The notes under the pieces are model-generated. The model had not been told where the DNA came from. It saw nothing but the letters and a program-made list of their open reading frames with translations, and made no database searches. Of a stretch of 37,515 nucleotides of DNA, positions 5,091 to 37,515 are shown piece by piece. The DNA is from Phycisphaerae bacterium. Lineage in GTDB: Bacteria; Planctomycetota; Phycisphaerae; Phycisphaerales; SM1A02. The stretch spans positions 1 through 37,515 of the forward strand of contig NZFX01000071.1 in NCBI GenBank assembly GCA_002689385.1, in the 5' to 3' direction. Positions within the stretch are counted from its first letter, which is position 1. Every line of letters begins with the position of its first letter. The position numbers and the translations under genes are program-made.

Positions 5091-5540
5091 ATGGCTAAAG
5101 TACTTTCTATTAACGTATCACCAGGGGGAATTCCAAAACTTCCTGTGGGTTCATGTGCATTAACCGTCAATGGTTTTGAGGGTGATGGACGAGATCATGA
5201 TAAACATAGAACCCCAGACCGAGCTGTCAGCTTGATTGATCAAGAAATCCTTGATCAGTTAACCGCAGAAGGGTATGAAGTGCCGTGGGGTGCTGTTGGT
5301 GAAAATTTAACAGTCAAGCAACTCGACGTGCAATCGCTTGAGCCCAATGACCGTCTCGTTTTTTCTGGAGGTGCTGTCATCGAACTCTTCGAAGGGCGAC
5401 GTCCATGTTTTGTTCTTGACCCACTTGGCGTAAACCTCAAAAAAGATATTGTTGGTCGTTGTGGTTACTTGGCGCGAGTGCTCACTGAAGGCGTGATCAC
5501 AACGGGCGAAACCATCGAAGTGCAAAAAGCCGATACGTAA
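5091..5540 (+). CDS. MOSC-domain protein
   Basis: A stand-alone MOSC domain (149 aa), the module found at the C-terminus of molybdenum-cofactor sulfurases and in YiiM-like proteins; such proteins bind Moco or move sulfur through a conserved Cys. Seen: VNGFEGDGRDHDKHRTPDRAVSLI (split over residues 27-50), the GAVGENLTV block typical of MOSC, and the conserved Cys in RRPCFVLDP. Start at 5091 was preferred over the longer frame from 5055, because it begins at the family's usual MAKVLSIN strand and has a TATAGT hexamer 7 nt upstream. The stop overlaps the mobA start (TAATG), so the two are probably co-translated. Confidence 0.88.
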   Translation: MAKVLSINVSPGGIPKLPVGSCALTVNGFEGDGRDHDKHRTPDRAVSLIDQEILDQLTAEGYEVPWGAVGENLTVKQLDVQSLEPNDRLVFSGGAVIELFEGRRPCFVLDPLGVNLKKDIVGRCGYLARVLTEGVITTGETIEVQKADT

Positions 5541-6085
5541 TGTGGCAACATACTGTTGCAATTCTTATTGGGGGGCAAAGCAAACGCATGGGGTCACCGA
5601 AACACCGAGTTAAACTTTCTAATGGACGCACAATGCTCGAGATGATGTTGCTTTTTGCAAATTCGTTTGCAAACCACACAGTCATTCTTGGTGGTGACAT
5701 TGAAGGTCAGCATTGCATACATGATTTACGAAAACAACTCGGCCCAGTAGGCGGTATTGAAGCGTTGTTGCATTCAAACATAGACACGAACTATCTTGTT
5801 GTTGGTTGTGACATGCCAGCCATTTCTGAAAAAGAAATCCAGCCATTACTGAACAGCACTAATAATGCAGTGTTTTCATTTGGAAACAGACTTATTGGCC
5901 TTCCATTGCGCATTAATAACGCAGCACGTGCAACGTGTACCGCGTATCTTGATTCTGGAGGCCGTTCTATCAAAGGCCTCGTTTCGGAAATTCCGCACGA
6001 AACTATTGTGCTAACCGAAGATCAATCAATCACGCTACAAAGTGTGAACTGCAGAGAGGATCTCGACTCGCTCACCTTTGAATAA
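5540..6085 (+). CDS. mobA: Molybdenum cofactor guanylyltransferase MobA
   Basis: Transfers GMP from GTP to molybdopterin to make the guanine dinucleotide cofactor used by DMSO-reductase-family enzymes. The nucleotide-binding signature is ILIGGQSKRMGSPKHRV (the usual LAGGxSxRMGxxK with Ile-Gly at the start); GPVGGIEALL and the metal-binding GCDMPAI block follow, and NCREDLDSL matches the usual C-terminal N-x-x-D-L motif. Length 181 aa is normal. It shares one base with the MOSC stop. The last 51 bp overlap the 3' end of the convergent formate-dehydrogenase-like gene, a molybdoenzyme that would need this cofactor. Confidence 0.92.
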   Translation: MWQHTVAILIGGQSKRMGSPKHRVKLSNGRTMLEMMLLFANSFANHTVILGGDIEGQHCIHDLRKQLGPVGGIEALLHSNIDTNYLVVGCDMPAISEKEIQPLLNSTNNAVFSFGNRLIGLPLRINNAARATCTAYLDSGGRSIKGLVSEIPHETIVLTEDQSITLQSVNCREDLDSLTFE

Positions 6086-8176
6086 CGGTGTGCGAGATTC
6101 AATATCAACAGATGTAGAAAGTATTTGATTCACTTCTGGATAATACATTGCGCAGTTTCCTTTTGTTATATCAATGCAACGTACAACAACGCGCATATCC
6201 CCAGATGGGCCCCGCACAATAACTTCATCGTTTTGCTTAACTCCGAGATCTTGCGCGTCTTCTTCATGCATCATGACAATGTCTCGGCGAGTCTGTCCCC
6301 GATAAATATCCTGTTCTTCATACACCACTGTATTAAACTGCCCCTCGCTTCGTATTGTCATTAGACTAAACAAACCATCATTCGGTAATTCTTGTAGCTC
6401 GATTCGATGTGCTTTTGCTTTACCGTTAGGTGTTGAGAACAGGGGAGTATGGAATGTCCGTCCTGCTATCTGATGTTCACGAGTTGCATCGAAACCTTGC
6501 AAGCAAGTGGCTATCAAGGCACGAATTGAATCGTTGTCTTTGTACGGTTCCCAATCAATTTTCCCAACGCCTTTTTTTGCAAGAGAAACTATGACTTCTA
6601 TCTCGCTCTTAGGTCCACTGTGCCGCGGCGAACCACCTGAACTTCGTCGAACATAGTTGAACATCGATTCTTGCGTGGTTACTTGAGGTTCTTCATCTCG
6701 AGCAAGAACCGGAAAGATGATCGTTTGAGCACCTCTTCCAATAAAGTGCCCTTGGTTTAAGGTCGTTGAAAGATATGCCACTTGGTTTACCTGTGACATT
6801 GCTTCCATAGCAAACCGAGTATCTGGGTTTGAGCCAGCCAAGTTACCGCCCAAACATAAAACTAAATCTACGTCCCCGCCGTGCGCTGCTTTCATACCCG
6901 CCATCGTGTCAAAACCGCTAGTTGTTGGCAAGGTGATACCAAGTTCCTTTTCAATTGCACGAGCCATCTCGCCCTTAAGGGTTGGAACTACGCCAACCGA
7001 TCCCATGCCTTGGACATTGGAATGTCCGCGAAGTGGCAATAATCCAGCACCTTCTTTGCCTAGCATCCCGCGCGCCATCGCAACGTTAGCAATCATGCGC
7101 ACGCTATCCACTCCACCCTTTACATGTGTTATCCCCATTGCCCAACAAAAGATTGCGTTCTTAGATGCTTTATACATTCTTGAAATGTGCGCAATTGTTT
7201 CAAGTGGAACTCCGCTTTGCGCTTCAATTTTCGCCCATGTGTTTTCGTTGGCTTGTGCGAGTACTTCATAAAACCCTTCGACATGGGTTTGCACAAATGT
7301 TTTATCTATACCTTCGTTTTCTATTAGCCACTTAATAACACCAAGCAATAAAAAAGCATCACCCCCAATATGTGGTTGAACATAAACATCTGCTATTTTT
7401 GAGCCGAACAGTAAACTTCTCCAATCACTTGGAACGTTAAAGTTACACAGCCCTTTTTCTCGTAGTGGATTTATAACAATAACTTTTCCGCCGCGGCGGC
7501 GAAGGTCAATTAACGATTTCAATAACCGCGGGTGATTCGAAGCTGGATTACACCCAATAAGAAAAATCAAATCGCATTTTTCTAAATCATCTAAAACAAC
7601 CGTAGCTGTTCCAGAACCTGTGACGCTTGATAATCCTACACCGCTAGCTTGGTGGCAATAATAAGAACAATTATTTATGTTGTTAGTTCCACGTATTCGT
7701 GCGAGTAATTGCAGCATAAAGCCAGCCTCGTTACTTGAACGGCCGCTGAAATAATAAAATGATTTGTTCGGTTCAACTTCTTTTATGGATATTGAAACTT
7801 TTTGAATTGCTTCTTCCCAATCAATTGGCTTGTAGTGTAAATCCAAAGGTCCAGCAATCACAGGAAAAGTTAGTCGACCACATGATTCTAACTCGCGAGG
7901 AGTCATTGCTGATAACTGAGCAATCGTATATGTTTCAAAAAACTCTGGCGTAATTGCTCCTTGCATATCCGCAACCATCGCTTGCACTGATTTTTTGCAG
8001 AACTCCAAATGCGAACCACGCTCGTTCACCATGCCGCCTTTTTGGCCGCCCATGCCAAGGGCACATGTTTTGCATGCGTTCTTCGTGCGCATCGCTCGTA
8101 TAAGCGCACGAATACCTCCGGCATTTCGTGCGTTTTTTAGTACATACGCAATGGAATGGAAGCCACCAAGCGCCAT
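6035..8176 (-). CDS. Formate-dehydrogenase-like molybdopterin oxidoreductase (FdhF/YdeP type)
   Basis: 713-residue member of the bis-MGD oxidoreductases, closest in style to the Fdh-alpha-like/YdeP group rather than classical formate dehydrogenase; the true substrate cannot be told. The N-terminal iron-sulfur region shows C35-x2-C38 and C60. The likely Mo ligand is the Cys of NNCSYYCHQASGVGL, so no selenocysteine is used. Further blocks: LIFLIGCNPASNHPR, CWAMGITHVKGGVDSV, LLPLRGHSNVQGMGSVGV, CLGGNLAGSNPDT and a C-terminal molydopterin-dinucleotide domain (residues about 600-705). It is third in an operon behind ispE and an M3 peptidase (3-nt gap), and faces mobA tail to tail with 51 bp overlap. 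Confidence 0.9.
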   Translation of the reverse strand: MALGGFHSIAYVLKNARNAGGIRALIRAMRTKNACKTCALGMGGQKGGMVNERGSHLEFCKKSVQAMVADMQGAITPEFFETYTIAQLSAMTPRELESCGRLTFPVIAGPLDLHYKPIDWEEAIQKVSISIKEVEPNKSFYYFSGRSSNEAGFMLQLLARIRGTNNINNCSYYCHQASGVGLSSVTGSGTATVVLDDLEKCDLIFLIGCNPASNHPRLLKSLIDLRRRGGKVIVINPLREKGLCNFNVPSDWRSLLFGSKIADVYVQPHIGGDAFLLLGVIKWLIENEGIDKTFVQTHVEGFYEVLAQANENTWAKIEAQSGVPLETIAHISRMYKASKNAIFCWAMGITHVKGGVDSVRMIANVAMARGMLGKEGAGLLPLRGHSNVQGMGSVGVVPTLKGEMARAIEKELGITLPTTSGFDTMAGMKAAHGGDVDLVLCLGGNLAGSNPDTRFAMEAMSQVNQVAYLSTTLNQGHFIGRGAQTIIFPVLARDEEPQVTTQESMFNYVRRSSGGSPRHSGPKSEIEVIVSLAKKGVGKIDWEPYKDNDSIRALIATCLQGFDATREHQIAGRTFHTPLFSTPNGKAKAHRIELQELPNDGLFSLMTIRSEGQFNTVVYEEQDIYRGQTRRDIVMMHEEDAQDLGVKQNDEVIVRGPSGDMRVVVRCIDITKGNCAMYYPEVNQILSTSVDIESRTPLFKGERVEILSAVHTL

Positions 8177-21287: not shown

Positions 21288-22616
21288 TTATTTTGCCTCA
21301 ATTGGAGTTATTGGAACTAGTGACGGCTTGCAACGGGCCTCAAACTCACTCATGTACTTATTAATGATTGTGCGTGTTGCCCAACTATTGCCATCTGCAA
21401 GGCCACAAATTGTCGTTCCTGGCATGATGCCCATTGAGTTTGACACCTCAATAACTTGATCAAGGTCTTTCATTGTTCCATCGCCCGATTCAATTCGGCA
21501 AAGCAATTGGTAAATCCAGTCAGCGCCCTCACGGCAAGGTGTGCATTGCCCACATGATTCGTTTTTATAAAACCGTGCAATGTTTCGTGCAACAGCAACC
21601 ATGTCTGTATCTTCATCAAACACGGTTGGGCACGCAGTGCCGAGGCCCATCACACTGTATTTGTGACCAATGTCAAAATCCATTTCTGCATCAAATTGAT
21701 CAGGTCCAAGAATGCCCATACTCACCCCGCCAGCGATTGCGCCTTTAAACTTTCGGCCGTTTTTCATTCCACCTGAATGTTCTTCAACAAGTGTGCGAAG
21801 TGTAATACCTAATTCAGCTTCAAAGACATCGGGGTTGTTTACGTGTCCCGAAACGCCCATTAGTTTTACGCCGTAACTTGCTGGTCCGCCGATGGTGGAT
21901 TCACAACCAAGTGACTTCCACCAGTCTGCGCCTTTTTCAACGATGAGGGGAACCGCTGCAAGCGTTTCCACATTATTAATAATCGTTGGTCTTCCGAACA
22001 AACCACTAACTGCGGGAAACGGTGGTTTAATTCTTGGCCAGCCACGTTTTCCTTCAACAGCTTCGAGCAACGCCGTTTCTTCGCCACATATATAAGCACC
22101 TGCACCTCGATGCAATGTACATTCAACTGCAAAACTGCTTGCTCCGTTCATGAGCCCTTGCGAACCAAAAATCCCATTCGCGTATGCTTCATCTATTGCC
22201 GTTTGCATAATTTTGGCTTGTTCAACCCACTCGCCACGTATAAAGAAGTAAGAAATATCTAACTTGCATGCATAACATGCAATTGCAATACCTTCGATTA
22301 CAGAGTGCGGGTCAAAATCAACAAGTAGACGGTCTTTAAATGTTCCCGGCTCTGCTTCATCGCAATTGATACACAGGTATCGTTCTTTACCATCTGGTTC
22401 AGGCAGAAACGTCCACTTTACACCGCACGGAAATCCTGCCCCACCACGACCACGAAGTTCTGCATCTTTCACGATGCTTACTACCTCGTCCGGTGGCATA
22501 AGTAAAACTTTTTTCAGAGTGGCATACCCGCCAGCTGCAACATATTCATCAAACGAAAGCGTTTTTCGGTGCGCGCGGTCTGCAGGAATATTTCTTGTGA
22601 GGAATCGCTCAGTCAC
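21288..22616 (-). CDS. nuoF: NADH-quinone oxidoreductase subunit F
   Basis: Complex I subunit carrying the NADH site, FMN and the N3 cluster. 442 aa with a GTG start. FMN/NADH-binding GRGGAGFPCGVKW, CINCDEAEPGTFKDR, GAGAYICGEETALLE, and the [4Fe-4S] ligands ESCGQCTPCREG plus TICGLAD are all intact. Its first 8 bp overlap the stop of the 66-codon gene, so translation is probably coupled. Confidence 0.97.
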   Translation of the reverse strand: MTERFLTRNIPADRAHRKTLSFDEYVAAGGYATLKKVLLMPPDEVVSIVKDAELRGRGGAGFPCGVKWTFLPEPDGKERYLCINCDEAEPGTFKDRLLVDFDPHSVIEGIAIACYACKLDISYFFIRGEWVEQAKIMQTAIDEAYANGIFGSQGLMNGASSFAVECTLHRGAGAYICGEETALLEAVEGKRGWPRIKPPFPAVSGLFGRPTIINNVETLAAVPLIVEKGADWWKSLGCESTIGGPASYGVKLMGVSGHVNNPDVFEAELGITLRTLVEEHSGGMKNGRKFKGAIAGGVSMGILGPDQFDAEMDFDIGHKYSVMGLGTACPTVFDEDTDMVAVARNIARFYKNESCGQCTPCREGADWIYQLLCRIESGDGTMKDLDQVIEVSNSMGIMPGTTICGLADGNSWATRTIINKYMSEFEARCKPSLVPITPIEAK

Positions 22617-22809
22617 TTTTTATGTCCTCTTGTGTAATTTCAATTTCTTCAATTGTTGTTCGACGAAGCGTCACGTTACCTTCTGTTTTTTCTTCAACAG
22701 TTCTGTTTACTTCGCGAGTTGGTTTGTCGGTTTTAATTGCATGCACAATGTGGCCAACAAACTCACCGAGGCATCGCGACAAAGGTTTTTTATTGTTCGT
22801 TGCCATCAT
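22609..22809 (-). CDS. Small protein between nuoE and nuoF (66 aa)
   Basis: Not recognised. The product is MMATNNKKPLSRCLGEFVGH followed by a mostly charged, Glu/Thr/Arg-rich tail that ends in EEIEITQEDIKSD. No membrane segment. It is linked on both sides: its ATG overlaps the nuoE stop by 4 nt (ATGA) and its stop overlaps the nuoF GTG by 8 nt (GTGACTGA). Such double overlap argues strongly that it is translated. It could be an accessory or assembly factor of the complex I NADH module, but that is inference from position alone. Confidence 0.75.
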   Translation of the reverse strand: MMATNNKKPLSRCLGEFVGHIVHAIKTDKPTREVNRTVEEKTEGNVTLRRTTIEEIEITQEDIKSD

Positions 22810-23339
22810 GATTCTTCACTCAGCCGGTCAACGAGGTCATCTACCTTAGAGATTGAAAGATTGTTGTATTGTTTGCCATTCACCAGGGCGCAGGGTGCGT
22901 TATCGCACGAGCCAATGCACTCCATGCCCAGCAAGGTAAACTTGCCATCAGCAGATGTTTCATGCACATCAACACCGAGCCGATTTTTTAAATGATCAAT
23001 CAAAGCCTGGTGTCCACACACTTCACACGCGATTGATTGGCAAATGCCAACAATATTTTTCCCAAGAGGTTCACTTGAATAGTCTTCATAAAACGAAACC
23101 ACGTCTGCAACTTGTGCTGGAGTAATGCCGAGCACTTTTGCAACTTCGACCATGGCTTCCCATGGAATATATCCGTATGTATGTTGCACTTCGTGCAGCG
23201 TAGTCATCAATGCCCCCTTGCCGGTTGCATACCGGGGCATGAAATCCTTCGTGATTTTTTCCATCAACACAGGCGTAAGATAGGGTTCATCTCGTTTTTC
23301 AAGTTTCGTATTCGCTGATTGTTTTGCAATCCAAGCCAT
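22806..23339 (-). CDS. nuoE: NADH-quinone oxidoreductase subunit E
   Basis: Complex I subunit with the N1a [2Fe-2S] cluster in a thioredoxin-like fold. 177 aa. Ligands are CQSIAC and CIGSCDNAP. Helical N-terminal HEVQHTYGYIPWEAMVEVAKVLGI and VSFYEDY (usually SFY) are family blocks. SD AAGGAAG, partly within the nuoD stop, sets the start; gap to nuoD is 9 bp. Confidence 0.96.
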   Translation of the reverse strand: MAWIAKQSANTKLEKRDEPYLTPVLMEKITKDFMPRYATGKGALMTTLHEVQHTYGYIPWEAMVEVAKVLGITPAQVADVVSFYEDYSSEPLGKNIVGICQSIACEVCGHQALIDHLKNRLGVDVHETSADGKFTLLGMECIGSCDNAPCALVNGKQYNNLSISKVDDLVDRLSEES

Positions 23340-23348
23340 TGTTCTTCC

Positions 23349-24641
23349 TTACCGATCTAATTCTGCAGCAATAATATTTAACGAACCCAAAATAGCCACG
23401 AGGTCTGAGAGTTGATGACCCTCAAACATTTTTGCAAATGTTTGGAAGTTAATAAATGAACAAGGTCTTGGCGCAACTCGCCATGAATTTGGCCCACTGT
23501 CTGAAACAACAAAGAAACCATACTCGCCATTTGGGCCTTCTATTGCTGCATAACACTCGCCAACTGGTGACTCCCAACCACGATTTGGCATAACTATTTC
23601 AAACTGTTGAATTGTGCCTTGAATCGAATCGTACACGTCTTGCTTCGGTGGCATTTTTACACCGCCACTCGGATGCACATCCAATGGTCCCTGAGGGATA
23701 TTATCAATGAGTTGACGAATGATGTGACACGATTGTTTAATTTCTTCAAGTCGAACGTGGTATCGCGCAAGGCAATCGCCTGTTGTTGCAATAGGTACAT
23801 CAAACTCAACCGCTTTAGCGCCTTGTCCATCCCAGTTATCTGCATAACAAAGGTATGGTTCGTCCTTGCGAAGGTCGCGCGTAACACCGCAAGCTCGTGC
23901 AAGCGGCCCTGTTAAAGACCAAGCGGTTGCTTCTTCTTTTGTAATCGTTCCAACGCCTTCAACACGGTCTATAAAAATACGATTTGTATTAAGCAGTGTT
24001 TCAATGTCATCAATTGCTTTTGGCATGCGCACATCAATAAAGTTGTGCACCATTTTTTGGAATGTTGCTTCACAAGGTAAATCGTTTTTTAGACCACCAA
24101 CACGGGTGTAATCTGGGTGGAACCGTTGACCAGAAACAAAGTCCATGATGTCGTATACGTGTTCGCGTTCGTTGAAGCCATATAAGAACCCTGTAAACGC
24201 GCCAAGGTCCAACGCAGCAGCGCCAACGCACAACAGGTGGTTTTGAATTCGGCCGAGTTCACAAAGAATAGTTCGCAGCACTTTGCAACGTGGCGTTAAA
24301 TCTATGTCAAGTAATTTTTCAACAGCGTGGTGCCAAGCAATGTCGTTAACAATCGGGCTGATGTAATCCATCCTACTTACAGTGCAAACATATTGGTCAA
24401 AGTTATGATGTTCACCAAGTTTTTCAAAACCACTATGCAAGTAGCCAATGTGAGGTGTTGCATTAACCACGCGCTCGCCGTCAAGTTCGAGAACCAGGCG
24501 AAGCGTGGTGTGGGTGGCGGGGTGCTGTGGACCGAAATTCAAAATCCATCGATCTTCGCATTCAGCGCGTCCCTGAAGTTCATCAAGCGTCTCGATATCA
24601 AGATCGTACGCTTCCTGCATTGGTGTAAGTGTGTAAGGCAT
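23349..24641 (-). CDS. nuoD: NADH-quinone oxidoreductase subunit D
   Basis: 49-kDa subunit that lines the quinone site. 430 aa. LNFGPQHPATHTTLRL, HIGYLHSGFEKLGEH, VCTVSRMDYISP and GECYAAIEGPNGEYGFFVVSDSG are hallmark segments. First gene of the nuoD-E-small-F run; nuoA, B, C and H-N are not in the window and nuoG is 7 kb away. No SD; a consensus TATAAT at 24653-24658 ends 11 nt before the ATG. Confidence 0.97.
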   Translation of the reverse strand: MPYTLTPMQEAYDLDIETLDELQGRAECEDRWILNFGPQHPATHTTLRLVLELDGERVVNATPHIGYLHSGFEKLGEHHNFDQYVCTVSRMDYISPIVNDIAWHHAVEKLLDIDLTPRCKVLRTILCELGRIQNHLLCVGAAALDLGAFTGFLYGFNEREHVYDIMDFVSGQRFHPDYTRVGGLKNDLPCEATFQKMVHNFIDVRMPKAIDDIETLLNTNRIFIDRVEGVGTITKEEATAWSLTGPLARACGVTRDLRKDEPYLCYADNWDGQGAKAVEFDVPIATTGDCLARYHVRLEEIKQSCHIIRQLIDNIPQGPLDVHPSGGVKMPPKQDVYDSIQGTIQQFEIVMPNRGWESPVGECYAAIEGPNGEYGFFVVSDSGPNSWRVAPRPCSFINFQTFAKMFEGHQLSDLVAILGSLNIIAAELDR

Positions 24642-31416: not shown

Positions 31417-32976
31417 TCACACCTCAGACAGCGGCATGTCGGTGTCAATACGGTTTGTGTTTTGCGGAAGTTCAACATCGAGCATACCCGCGATTCCTGC
31501 ATCAGCCATTCTTCTTCGCACAGTTGCTGCGTTAAACACAGTCGCTTCCATGTCGTTCACAAGCGCTTGCAAATTCATCGCAAATTGTCCTTCGGCTTGC
31601 GAGTCACCAACTGGGTGAATTGCGCGATCAAACAACTGCAATTTGTTATCGTAATTTTCAAACGTGCCAGCTTTTTCTGCCCACGTTGCTGCAGAAAGGA
31701 ACGCATCTGCACGTTCAGTTAAGCCATTTGCAAGCGTGTCTATCAAAACAAGCGTTTGGTTTTCAGAAATTTCGGGGGTGTCCCAGGCCTCTGGATAGTT
31801 GCCAGTTACAACAACGGTATCCGCGCTTGTCATCTGTTTTTTCCACTCGTCGTACTCAAAGACATCACCAAGCGCCCTTCGTACTCCCCTTGCATTTGGT
31901 GCTTTTTCGCTTCTGATTGTGAATCCGCTTTTAAATGTTTTATCATCGCCATCAATCGGTACGGGGCCTACGCCAACGATAGCCTCCTTATCAATAGAGC
32001 GAACGAGGTTGCCAAGCAGCCAAGCGTCTTCGCAACTAAGCATCGGGCTCACGAGCAACGCAATGGTACTTGCTTGTTGGAGTTTGTCTGCAGCGATTAA
32101 CTCTGCGTCTTCATCCATATCCACAACGCGAGTTTTATCGTGCACAAATTTCCAGCCGTACCGAACTTCATCCGTAATCCAATATTGATTTACTTCAAGG
32201 TTGGTGCGTGGCTTAACGCGGTATACCTGATTGTTATTGTGTTCAATAACAATGTTGTCGCCACTGCTTGTAAGCGGATCAATCGAAGGTACTGTTTTTA
32301 AAAACCAAACGCGTTGTTGGAACATAAAATCTTTGTCAAGCAGAGCGCCAACTGGGCAAATGTCAATAACATTACCGCTCAGTTCGTTGTTAATGCCAAT
32401 CCCAGGAAACACATCAATGCATTCTTTTGCACCACGACCTTCAATATAAAGTTCGCTCGTGCCAGTAATTTCATCTGCAAAACGAACACAGCGAGTACAC
32501 ATAATGCAACGGTCGCCGTACAACATGATGTTGTCGCCAATATCTTTTTTCGATTGTGTTATTTTTTCTGTGTCACACCGGCGTTCGCCACGACCATATT
32601 CGTAGGCATAATCTTGAAGGTCACACTCACCTGCTTGATCGCATGTTGGGCAATCGATTGGGTGATGGTTCAACAACATTTCCATAACTGCTTTTTGGTT
32701 TGCTGTTGCCTTCGGAGATGATGTGTAGACTATTTGCCCATCGCCCGCAGGCGTTTGGCAAGTCGGCAACAACTTTGGCATTGGTTCAAGCTTGTTGTCA
32801 TTTCGTGGGTTTGGTGCCCACACCTCTGCAAGGCAGATTCGACAACTCGCAACGACACTTAACGATGGGTGGTAACAGTAATGCGGAATCTCCATCTCGT
32901 TGTTATGTGCAACATCGAGGATCGATTGACCTAGTTCAAATTCAAGTGCTTTTCCATCTATCGTAATCGTGGGCAT
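31417..32976 (-). CDS. nuoG: NADH-quinone oxidoreductase subunit G (short form)
   Basis: 519 aa from the ATG at 32976; the frame runs to 33021 only because it reads into repeat cluster D. N-terminal ferredoxin domain with HYCYHPSLSVVASCRICLAE and PTCQTPAG ([2Fe-2S]), then HHPIDCPTCDQAGECDLQ (His/Cys N5-type ligands), DRCIMCTRCVRF and DICPVGAL ([4Fe-4S]). The C-terminal molybdopterin-like domain is short and degenerate (about residues 250-519), as in mitochondrial-type 75-kDa subunits; E. coli NuoG is about 900 aa. Separated from nuoDEF by 6.8 kb and unrelated genes. TACAAT lies 9 nt before the ATG. Confidence 0.95.
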   Translation of the reverse strand: MPTITIDGKALEFELGQSILDVAHNNEMEIPHYCYHPSLSVVASCRICLAEVWAPNPRNDNKLEPMPKLLPTCQTPAGDGQIVYTSSPKATANQKAVMEMLLNHHPIDCPTCDQAGECDLQDYAYEYGRGERRCDTEKITQSKKDIGDNIMLYGDRCIMCTRCVRFADEITGTSELYIEGRGAKECIDVFPGIGINNELSGNVIDICPVGALLDKDFMFQQRVWFLKTVPSIDPLTSSGDNIVIEHNNNQVYRVKPRTNLEVNQYWITDEVRYGWKFVHDKTRVVDMDEDAELIAADKLQQASTIALLVSPMLSCEDAWLLGNLVRSIDKEAIVGVGPVPIDGDDKTFKSGFTIRSEKAPNARGVRRALGDVFEYDEWKKQMTSADTVVVTGNYPEAWDTPEISENQTLVLIDTLANGLTERADAFLSAATWAEKAGTFENYDNKLQLFDRAIHPVGDSQAEGQFAMNLQALVNDMEATVFNAATVRRRMADAGIAGMLDVELPQNTNRIDTDMPLSEV

Positions 32977-32985
32977 AGTTTGGAT

Positions 32986-32991
32986 ATTGTA
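32986..32991 (-). promoter_or_regulatory. -10 element (TACAAT) for nuoG
   Basis: TACAAT with nine bases to the nuoG ATG and no SD. Repeat cluster D begins 4 bp upstream, the same spacing as at the ABC permease. Confidence 0.5.
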
Positions 32992-32995
32992 GCTT

Positions 32996-33048
32996 GGTGT
33001 CTGACCCCTGGGGTCTGACACCGGGGGTCAGACACCATGGGTCAGACA
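32996..33048. repeat. Dispersed 14-bp repeat, cluster D
   Basis: Four units: GGTGTCTGACCCCT, GGGGTCTGACACC, GGGGGTCAGACACC and ATGGGTCAGACA. GGTGTCTGACCCC (32996-33008) and GGGGTCAGACACC (33024-33036) are a perfect 13-bp inverted repeat with a 15-bp spacer that is itself a unit. It fills the gap between nuoG's -10 and the next gene. Confidence 0.95.
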
Positions 33049-35013: not shown

Positions 35014-37515
35014 TTATTTTGTGGAGACCAGTTCGACATCGAAGATGAGGGTTGCGCCACCAGGAATCACGCCACCAGCACCAGCGGCGCCGTAACCGAG
35101 ATCCGCAGGAATGATAAGTTTACGCTTACCGCCGACTTTCATCGAACCAACACCTTCTGTCCAACCAGCAATCACTCCGTTTAGGGGGAATTCGATGGTT
35201 TGGCCGCGATCAACGCTTGAATCAAATTTTGTGCCATCTGTAAGCCAGCCCGTGTAATGCACTTCAACAGTGCTCGCTGCACTTGCTGGTGTTGCACCTT
35301 CACCTTCTGTGATGTCATACCACTGAAGTCCTGAATCGCTTGTTGAAATATCGCCTGTTACTGAATCACCTGGTAGTTGTTCCATTGGGGGTACCTTTGC
35401 ATAGTCAATTGGTTTAAAGATGTCGAACAATTCGACGTCGAAGATAAGAGTTGCATTCGCAGGAATACTTGGTCTTCCTCGCGAGCCATACGCTAAATGA
35501 GCCGGAATTCTGAATTTTCGTTTTTCGCCAACAACCATGTCGCTGACACCTTCTGTCCACCCTTTGATTACTCGGTTAAGAGGAAATACTGCAGGTTGCC
35601 CTCGGTCAACGCTTGAATCAAACTTGGTACCGTCTTCCAGCCAGCCTGTGTAGTGAACTTTTACTTCCCAGTTGGTTTCCGGTGAATCACCGCCGGCATC
35701 ACCTTCGTTTATTACCCACCATTCCAAGCCACTTGTGGATTGTTCTGGTTCGCCAGTCACTGCATCGCCTGGCAAAGCAAGTGCATCAACTTCTAAACCA
35801 AGCGATTCCAAAAATGCATTCATCGATGGTTCGCGACCAAGATACGCTCGAACCAGGTCAATGCTGTCTTCTGTGCCGCCCTTGGATAAAATCTTTTCGC
35901 GGTAATACGCACCGGCTTCAGGGCTAAGCATGCCAAGTTCTTTAAATCGTTGGAACATGTCTTGTGCATATACAAGAGACCACATGTAACCGTAGTACCC
36001 AGCTTGATAGCCCGTCAAATGACCAAAACTTCCTTGAAAATGGGAACCAGGTGTATGCGTATACATTCGTACCTCGTCGTGGATGTCGTACCCAACCTGG
36101 GTAGTGTCAACAACACCATCGGTATCGGTGTGGTACGCCTGGTCAACCATGCCTAAGAAAATTTGCCCTTCGGTTTTAACACCGCTCTGTAAATTTTTCG
36201 CAGCAATCATCCCCTGGATAAGTTCGTCTGGCATTGGTTCATTCGTTTCGTAATGACGAGCAAACAGTTTCAACGTTTCGGGTGTCCATACCCACTCTTC
36301 GAACATTTGCGATGGCGCTTCAACGAAGTCGCGCTCAACGCTTGTTCCAGCAAATCCAGCGATTTCTGCTTCACTTAAAATCGTGTGCAAACAGTGACCA
36401 AACTCATGGAAGAATGTTTCCACTTCGTCATGAGTCATAAGCGAGGGCTTATCTGCAGTAGGTTTTGTAAAGTTACAAACAAGTGCTGCAACAGGAAGTT
36501 GCACGGTGCCGTCTGCCCAAATTTTATGTTGCACCAATCCCCATTGTGCAGCGTGAGAATATTTATTGTCCCGCGGGTGCAGGTCAATATAAAATTCGCC
36601 GAGTTGGTTTCCAGATTTTGTATCCCAAACCTCAAACAAGCGAACATCGTCGTGCCAAAGCGGTGTGCCGCGCTCCATTGCAATACTCGTTACTTCGCGA
36701 TACTCAATGCCGTACAACAGTTGTGTAATCTCGAACAAACCATCCATGACGTTTTGCAAGGGTAAGTATTCTTGTACTTTCTGTGAATCAACTGCGTACT
36801 TTTTATTTTTAATTTTTTCGTAGTAATAACCAAAATCGTACGGATAGAACTCTGCTGTTGGGTCGCCAGTATCTTTTCTTTTTGCCTCAAGAAGTTCTTC
36901 CCAGTCTTTTTCTGCTTTTTTGCGAACGACGGGGCGGAGTTTTTTATAAAAATCCGCAACTGTTTTAGCGTTCTTGGACATCTTTGTTTCAGTTTCGTAA
37001 TCAGCCGCCGTTGCGTAGCCAAGCAAATCAGATGCTTCATCGCGCAACTTAAGAATGCGCTCAAGAAGCAATACATTTTCTTGACCGGCACGCTTTGAAT
37101 AGGCAAAACGAACTGCTTTTCGCGTTGCTGAATTGGAACAATAATCAAGTACTGGGCCAAACGTAGGGTAGTCAAGTGTAACCTGATAGTTGCCGTCAAC
37201 AACATCGAGTCTATCTACAACGTCTTGTGGAACACCTTCAAGACCACCAAGTGGAATTGGAACAACCGTTTTGTCTTCGCGAATATTCGTGTCAAATTCA
37301 ATTGTTAATGTGCCGAGTTCTTTTTGGATTGTTTTTAATTTTTCGCGGTCTTCTTTTGAAAGGGACATTCCACTTCGTCGATAGTCACGCATTGTGTATT
37401 CAAGCATCCGTGCTTGTTCGCCTGACAAATTTGGTTTTGTATCTGCGTAGGTTTTTATTGCGTTGTATAAATCTTCGTTGGTAGCAAAATCAATCGACCA
37501 GTCAGACCAAAGTTG
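35014..37515 (-). CDS. M3-family metallopeptidase fused to two FKBP-type prolyl isomerase domains (N-terminus cut off)
   Basis: 833 codons visible, open to the right window edge, so the true start and any signal peptide are outside. The first ~565 residues are a thimet/Dcp-type M3 peptidase: zinc motif HEFGHCLH, GYYGYMWSLVYAQDMFQRF, YREKILSKGGTEDS and a C-terminal DLVRAYLGREPSMNAFL. Then two FKBP modules, each with a near-identical linker (LPGDAVTGE and LPGDSVTGD), the binding strand VHYTGWLxDGTKFDSSVDRG, VIxGWTEGV and LAYG/LGYG loop. Both end in LIFDVEL. The duplicated FKBP-plus-linker unit argues for a tandem duplication. Prolyl isomerases joined to an oligopeptidase are unusual. Likely envelope-located, by analogy with secreted FKBPs only. 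Confidence 0.9.
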   Translation of the reverse strand, partial: QLWSDWSIDFATNEDLYNAIKTYADTKPNLSGEQARMLEYTMRDYRRSGMSLSKEDREKLKTIQKELGTLTIEFDTNIREDKTVVPIPLGGLEGVPQDVVDRLDVVDGNYQVTLDYPTFGPVLDYCSNSATRKAVRFAYSKRAGQENVLLLERILKLRDEASDLLGYATAADYETETKMSKNAKTVADFYKKLRPVVRKKAEKDWEELLEAKRKDTGDPTAEFYPYDFGYYYEKIKNKKYAVDSQKVQEYLPLQNVMDGLFEITQLLYGIEYREVTSIAMERGTPLWHDDVRLFEVWDTKSGNQLGEFYIDLHPRDNKYSHAAQWGLVQHKIWADGTVQLPVAALVCNFTKPTADKPSLMTHDEVETFFHEFGHCLHTILSEAEIAGFAGTSVERDFVEAPSQMFEEWVWTPETLKLFARHYETNEPMPDELIQGMIAAKNLQSGVKTEGQIFLGMVDQAYHTDTDGVVDTTQVGYDIHDEVRMYTHTPGSHFQGSFGHLTGYQAGYYGYMWSLVYAQDMFQRFKELGMLSPEAGAYYREKILSKGGTEDSIDLVRAYLGREPSMNAFLESLGLEVDALALPGDAVTGEPEQSTSGLEWWVINEGDAGGDSPETNWEVKVHYTGWLEDGTKFDSSVDRGQPAVFPLNRVIKGWTEGVSDMVVGEKRKFRIPAHLAYGSRGRPSIPANATLIFDVELFDIFKPIDYAKVPPMEQLPGDSVTGDISTSDSGLQWYDITEGEGATPASAASTVEVHYTGWLTDGTKFDSSVDRGQTIEFPLNGVIAGWTEGVGSMKVGGKRKLIIPADLGYGAAGAGGVIPGGATLIFDVELVSTK

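Follow-up and report, generated by a model that had tools for sequence, protein, structure and literature searches.

A 66-residue protein encoded between nuoE and nuoF in a planctomycete lineage: a probable accessory protein of the NADH module of complex I

The 66-codon gene and its neighbours

The window, by which we mean the whole stretch of 37,515 nucleotides that was analysed, comes from a genome of 1.94 Mb in 87 contigs, and carries the following complex I genes and overlaps.

23349–24641, minus strand: nuoD, 430 residues (PF00346), directly upstream of nuoE
22806–23339, minus strand: nuoE, 177 residues, 2Fe-2S thioredoxin-like (PF01257, E = 2.9e-46; TIGR01958, 137 bits against a cut-off of 142)
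22806–22809, minus strand: ATGA overlap of 4 nt, read from the sequence, joining the nuoE stop and the start of the 66-residue gene
22609–22809, minus strand: the 66-residue gene, an open reading frame of 66 codons with its ATG at 22809 and a second in-frame ATG directly after it
22609–22616, minus strand: GTGACTGA overlap of 8 nt, read from the sequence, joining the nuoF start and the stop of the 66-residue gene
21288–22616, minus strand: nuoF, 442 residues, FMN subunit (PF01512, E = 5.2e-44; PF10589)
31417–33021, minus strand: nuoG, 534 residues, short and apart from the nuoDEF cluster (TIGR01973, 352 bits against a cut-off of 470)

A sequence-only reading of the window had placed a gene at 22606–22811; the gene is there, but that span is a few bases too wide and was given without a strand. 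The overlaps with nuoE and nuoF at its two ends, of 4 nt and 8 nt, are as that reading described them. With the first ATG taken as the start, 11 of the 13 genomes of the genus share the 4-nt overlap with nuoE and two have 1 nt; at the nuoF end, 12 show 8 nt and one shows 4 nt. The overlap with nuoF is not constant beyond the genus, a gap standing in its place at, for example, L016, L022, L024 and L028.

NuoF scored 507 bits against TIGR01959, for which the cut-off is 559, and passed NF010120 (444 bits, cut-off 389); it is 68–70% identical to its closest named relatives, which come from Planctomycetota or Phycisphaerales metagenome-assembled genomes. The nuoG gene lies approximately 7 kb from the nuoDEF cluster on the same strand, and its product matches positions 1–333 of the 606 in the TIGR01973 model; NuoE, NuoF and NuoG all fall under the TIGR01958, TIGR01959 and TIGR01973 cut-offs. 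The available text of a survey reports that nuoF and nuoG annotations are missing in most Phycisphaerales (PMC11266412), which could result from the short NuoG together with scores of this kind below the cut-offs.

Coding potential, selection and distribution

Measured against the codon usage of the neighbouring nuo genes, the 66-codon frame scored 0.44 bits per codon, compared with −0.74 to 0.04 for the other five frames and a best value of 0.17 in 2000 shuffles. When the 13 genus genomes were compared with the overlapping ends excluded, pN was lower than pS in 78 of 78 genome pairs. Codon position 3 was more variable than positions 1 and 2, a difference that was reached in none of 10 000 label shuffles. 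The median dN/dS among the genus genomes was 0.19 (53 pairs with dS below 2), compared with 0.080 for NuoE (19 pairs) and 0.061 for NuoF (30 pairs) in the same test; the frame is a protein-coding gene under constraint, and it evolves faster than the adjoining core subunits. The sequence-only reading had named a neutral substitution pattern and a lack of conservation as the results that would speak against it, and the data went the other way in both cases, with purifying selection (dN/dS of about 0.19) and with the frame found in 13 of 13 genus genomes and in 67 of the 73 from the order. A spurious open reading frame, in favour of which only the short length can be cited, is refuted by this selection and by the conservation across the order, and we give it practically no chance of being the explanation.

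With the window protein as query, 54 of 61 relatives matched, including every genome of the genus. A first profile (A1) matched 47 of the 198 genomes of the class and a broader profile (A2) matched 51, made up of 31 of the 34 in the order, 18 in f11, which is another family of the same class, and two marginal matches, G062 (E = 0.005) and G127 (E = 0.0013), that were left out of the counts. The figure of 67 in 73 for the order, which is very probably Phycisphaerales, combines both samples. In the sample of the phylum at least 28 of 392 genomes matched A2 at E of 0.001 or less, all 28 of them in the order, the best 14 candidates per genome having been scored, so that weak members could escape. 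Within f11, seven of the 25 genomes with a listed nuoD gave no match. The breadth of the profile mattered at the edges of the family: the single-protein search overlooked G029 and G049, and A1 overlooked G232, all three being found with A2 as diverged copies directly behind nuoE. Several weak matches to A1 were dropped, G269, G463 and G272 because their stretches contain no nuoD, nuoE or nuoF and the frames are dissimilar, and G138 (E = 0.0076) and G215 (E = 0.0033) because they are absent from the A2 matches.

The suggestion that complex I operons rarely carry an extra gene at this point held up in a wider comparison. The family occurs in four of 80 named nuoF loci drawn from a wide range of phyla, all four titled planctomycete or Phycisphaerales, and six of the 71 other named loci with a readable nuoE–nuoF gap leave 150 nt or more. 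In f9, f13, f14, f21 and one f22 locus nuoE and nuoF are separated by a short gap alone, and L230 (f22) and L228 (f19) hold other, unrelated-looking frames between the two genes; nuoE was not seen at the three f8 loci examined.

The gene had also been called unrecognised, and our searches bear this out, there being no convincing match in Pfam, NCBIfam, PHROGs or the PDB. The window protein matched no Pfam family at E of 1 or less and one NCBIfam model at E = 0.087, under the cut-off of that model. For 32 members of the family the best results were single-member matches (E = 0.0046 in Pfam and 0.029 in NCBIfam), none of them to a complex I family, and by these Pfam and NCBIfam results the protein lies outside the 14 core subunits. 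The Pfam match, to chorismate synthase and from one member of the 32, was unconvincing, as was that of 30 residues of one f11 member to a PHROG of unknown function (E = 0.0011), and matches in the PDB to a bromodomain, RNA polymerase and Maf were at E = 0.2 or worse. Profiles A1 and A2 matched no complex I chain among the PDB sequences at E up to 10, a search with little power at this protein length; plasmids and viral contigs yielded no matches. Foldseek with the predicted model returned nothing at E of 0.001 or less (best E = 0.69), and two VIA-align rows (Z = 2.7 and 2.0) were treated as noise. No description of the gene was found in the literature covered, which includes few subscription papers, on NADH dehydrogenase or nuoE/nuoF of Phycisphaerae and planctomycetes or on accessory subunits, and the statement that unidentified frames occur in the nuo operons of alphaproteobacteria found no support there. 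The protein family would be new relative to the libraries searched; lineage-limited extra subunits of complex I are already known as a class.

Linkage to complex I genes and co-occurrence

Linkage was mapped to nuoD, nuoE, nuoF and nuoG among the nuo genes. Its link to complex I genes holds in many species: 77 of the 85 positive genomes carry nuoE, nuoF or both on the strand of the gene within the stretch read (1.7–19.5 kb), and in 47 of the 85 it stands between the two, within 400 nt on each side. Other arrangements are characteristic of particular families. All six f4 genomes have the gene following nuoE with nuoF absent from the stretch, and nuoF was located 24–27 kb away on the same contig in the two of them that were tested; G224 and G228 (f2) have nuoF about 1.5 kb downstream of the gene and nuoE elsewhere. 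In f11, nuoE lies 0.46–1.5 kb upstream of the gene in 13 of 18 genomes. A PTP/DSP-like phosphatase gene occurs between nuoE and the homologue in f11 (L171, 2121–2753; L238, 3588–4271; also L181 and L237); the two loci tested matched the Pfam family PTP-NADK (E = 6.6e-19 and 1.1e-20), and L181 and L237 were judged by eye. The phosphatase-like protein has a hydrophobic stretch at its N-terminus and a PTP/DSP signature.

The eight positives with no nuoD, nuoE, nuoF or nuoG nearby are five f2 genomes, two f11 genomes and G038, in which the gene lies close to the end of a contig; the other seven have enough flanking sequence for this absence to be read. In the f2 genus g26 (G037, G042, G046 and G050; loci L150–L153), nuoD, nuoE, nuoF and the small gene are all apart from one another, on different contigs or, in G042 and G046, hundreds of kilobases apart. 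Such a scatter of complex I genes is unusual. On the single contig of G046, nuoE lies at 0.37, nuoD at 1.55, the small gene at 1.91 and nuoF at 3.35 Mb, and the copy of the small gene retains the motifs LMRSLG and LRRTTTTIDEVR. The gene has therefore been kept in g26, with the same motifs, without the help of the operon. Its neighbours in the f2 genus are pfkB kinase and M32 peptidase genes, a setting not expected of a gene bound purely to the operon.

A close nuoD (E below 1e-170) was present in all 49 clear positives among the 198 class genomes, so that the gene was found only together with complex I, with G038 as a caveat. This genome (92% complete) has the gene and has nuoE as distant paralogues alone, but the gene lies 209 nt from the contig end on the upstream side, and a nuoE may have been cut off there. 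As presence of the gene follows phylogeny, these counts of co-occurrence are not independent events.

Absences within the order point in the same direction for the most part. Six genomes of the order lack the gene by A2 (G158, G020, G022, G023, G041 and G045), and four of the six lack a canonical nuoE. G158, which is 96% complete, has no nuoD, nuoE, nuoF or small gene; nuoD is absent from G020 and G022, where nuoE and nuoF occur as distant paralogues alone, and G023 has nuoD, no nuoE, and nuoF as a distant paralogue alone, although the absences in G020, G022 and G023 may reflect incompleteness, these genomes being 88, 74 and 82% complete, respectively. G041 and G045, which are 98% complete and belong to f6, are the main result against an essential role: both have nuoD and closely spaced nuoE and nuoF, and no copy was found by the A2 profile. 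The copy has been either lost or has become too diverged to be detected. These two genomes have complex I without the gene, which is therefore not universally needed.

Predicted fold and possible role in the NADH module

The 69 sequences of the A2 alignment contain two conserved segments and a variable middle. Segment 1 is helix-forming and reads K-x-L-M-R-C-L-G-E-F-V-G-H-I in f1, W-F-x-x-L-C-R-x-x-G-L-x-I-H in f5 and f6 and G-W-L-G-R-Q-V-G-H-V in f11; segment 2 is a C-terminal strand, V-T-L-R-R-T-T-I-D-E-V-E. Arg49 and Glu55 are conserved in 69 of 69 sequences, Gly15 and Thr51 in 67 and Gly19 in 58, and residues 49, 51, 53, 55 and 57 (Arg, Thr, Ile, Glu and Glu) alternate as for one face of a strand. 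In G102 the frame reaches 160 residues, its middle being lengthened by an Ala/Pro-rich insert. The helix is strongly amphipathic, with a moment of 1.97 that was matched by one of 2000 shuffles, and the net charge is +3 over residues 1–30 and −4 over residues 31–66. AlphaFold2 predicted, for the isolated chain, a helix at residues 10–26 followed by a hairpin of strands 31–43 and 46–57 (mean pLDDT 80, pTM only 0.37); a second run on 18 sequences from f5, f6 and f11 yielded helix and strands in the same order, with low confidence (pLDDT 61). The description of the protein as charged and helix-forming thus appears to be half right, as the helix is predicted but is followed by a predicted β-hairpin. 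A small chain with two conserved patches and a variable middle looks like a binder of other proteins.

The linkage to nuoE and nuoF, the overlapping frames in the genus, the retention after dispersal and the co-absence all point to the NADH module, and the proposal that the protein may be a factor of this module agrees with the linkage and co-occurrence as a candidate role. We consider that the protein in all likelihood serves complex I, and that it is probably an accessory protein of the NADH module that is specific to this lineage; we put at about 0.6 the probability that it is a stoichiometric subunit, which would clasp NuoE and NuoF in a role comparable to that of mammalian NDUFV3. In the genus, the overlapping frames would allow the protein to be made in step with NuoE and NuoF. 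The amphipathic helix, with Gly15 and Gly19, might pack on one of these two partners and the C-terminal β-hairpin, with the invariant Arg49 and Glu55 on one strand face, on the other, and the variable linker would span the distance between them. The resulting clasp would bridge NuoE and NuoF either permanently, as a subunit, or during assembly.

NDUFV3 is the known subunit that such a protein would most resemble. The available text of PMC8762328 describes this 10-kDa subunit of animal complex I as a coil, a helix and a coil in the cleft between NDUFV1 and NDUFV2, and that of PMC11522691 calls it animal-specific. Both proteins are small, and NDUFV3 is tied to the NuoE and NuoF homologues NDUFV2 and NDUFV1 as the 66-residue protein is linked to NuoE and NuoF by gene position. 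In contrast, a helix and a β-hairpin are predicted for the isolated chain of the 66-residue protein, with a pTM of only 0.37, and A1 and A2 detected no NDUFV3 sequence homology among PDB chains at E up to 10, within the weak power of that search for a short protein. The C-terminus of Paracoccus NDUFV2 partly overlays the position of NDUFV3, as far as the accessible part of PMC11522691 describes it, and the peptide that fills the site could therefore differ between lineages. The same portion of that paper states that NDUFS4, NDUFS6 and NDUFA12 stabilize the NADH module in Paracoccus and that Nqo15 and Nqo16 replace two of them in Thermus. These five proteins and the Paracoccus PIMT are, as the 66-residue protein would be, lineage-limited additions to a bacterial complex I of 14 subunits; the PDB profile searches returned no chain of Nqo15, Nqo16, NDUFS4, NDUFS6 or NDUFA12 at E up to 10. 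That an independent, NDUFV3-like clasp has arisen in planctomycetes of this order, as a bacterial subunit lying in the NuoE/NuoF cleft and supporting a diverged NADH module with a NuoG of only 534 residues, is a tentative suggestion that we find doubtful as a whole; a diverged, shortened NADH module that gained a small stabilizer would make a coherent, if unproven, story.

The lengths of NuoE were compared for an exchange of the gene against a C-terminal extension of NuoE. NuoE has 184–226 residues at seven loci without the gene (f9, f19, f21 and f22, with 226 in L231 of f22) and 174–181 residues at 16 of 17 f1, f4 and f6 loci with it. The exchange is not clean, since NuoE has 172 residues in f13 and f14, and 188 and 174 in two f6 genomes, all without the gene, and reaches 189–195 residues in f11, 179–209 in f2 and 190 at one f5 locus, all with it.

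The same linkage and co-occurrence would fit a dedicated assembly factor or chaperone of NuoE and NuoF that departs once the complex is complete, having acted for example in the loading of FMN or Fe-S clusters or in the docking of the module. The small size and the opposite charges of the two halves (+3 N-terminal, −4 C-terminal) are in keeping with such a factor, and G041 and G045 manage without the gene, but the family has no conserved set of cysteines, position 13 being Cys in 25 of 69 sequences, and translation interleaved in the genus with that of its two neighbours would suit, without proving, equimolar amounts. We regard an assembly factor as rather unlikely. The near-invariance of Arg49 and Thr51 raises instead the idea that the protein regulates complex I and may be phosphorylated at RRTT(I); the phosphatase encoded between nuoE and the small gene in f11 (two genomes tested) would then act on it. 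RRxT resembles the sites of basophilic kinases. Four f4 sequences of A2, however, read RETR or RETV in place of RRTT, and the alternation of conserved residues from 49 to 57 fits a strand face without any phosphorylation, which leaves a regulatory role improbable.

A passenger of the operon, conserved for some unrelated function, would account for the pfkB and M32 peptidase neighbours in the f2 genus and for the copy in G038 found without a canonical nuoE, albeit at a contig end. Such a passenger is hard to reconcile with the presence of nuoE, nuoF or both alongside the gene in 77 of 85 genomes and with a close nuoD in 49 of 49 clear positives of the class, and we consider it highly improbable. 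The subunit of the NADH module remains our preferred reading, in which binding to NuoE and NuoF and the geometry of the clasp are what we infer from gene order, conservation and the predicted fold.

According to the available text of PMC8762328, complex I of bacteria is commonly regarded as a machine of 14 subunits; few extra bacterial subunits have been documented. If our reading is correct, this conserved additional protein, fixed in a single order, would provide a new example of the gain of an accessory part by the NADH module, and the 66-residue protein is a direct candidate to be sought in purified planctomycete complex I.

Two further loci of the window were noted. An 804-residue frame at 35014–37428 combines an M3 peptidase domain with two C-terminal FKBP-type prolyl isomerase domains, and a 713-residue molybdopterin oxidoreductase-like protein (Pfam) is encoded at 6035–8176, adjoined by a frame at 5540–6085 that by eye resembles a molybdenum-cofactor nucleotidyltransferase.
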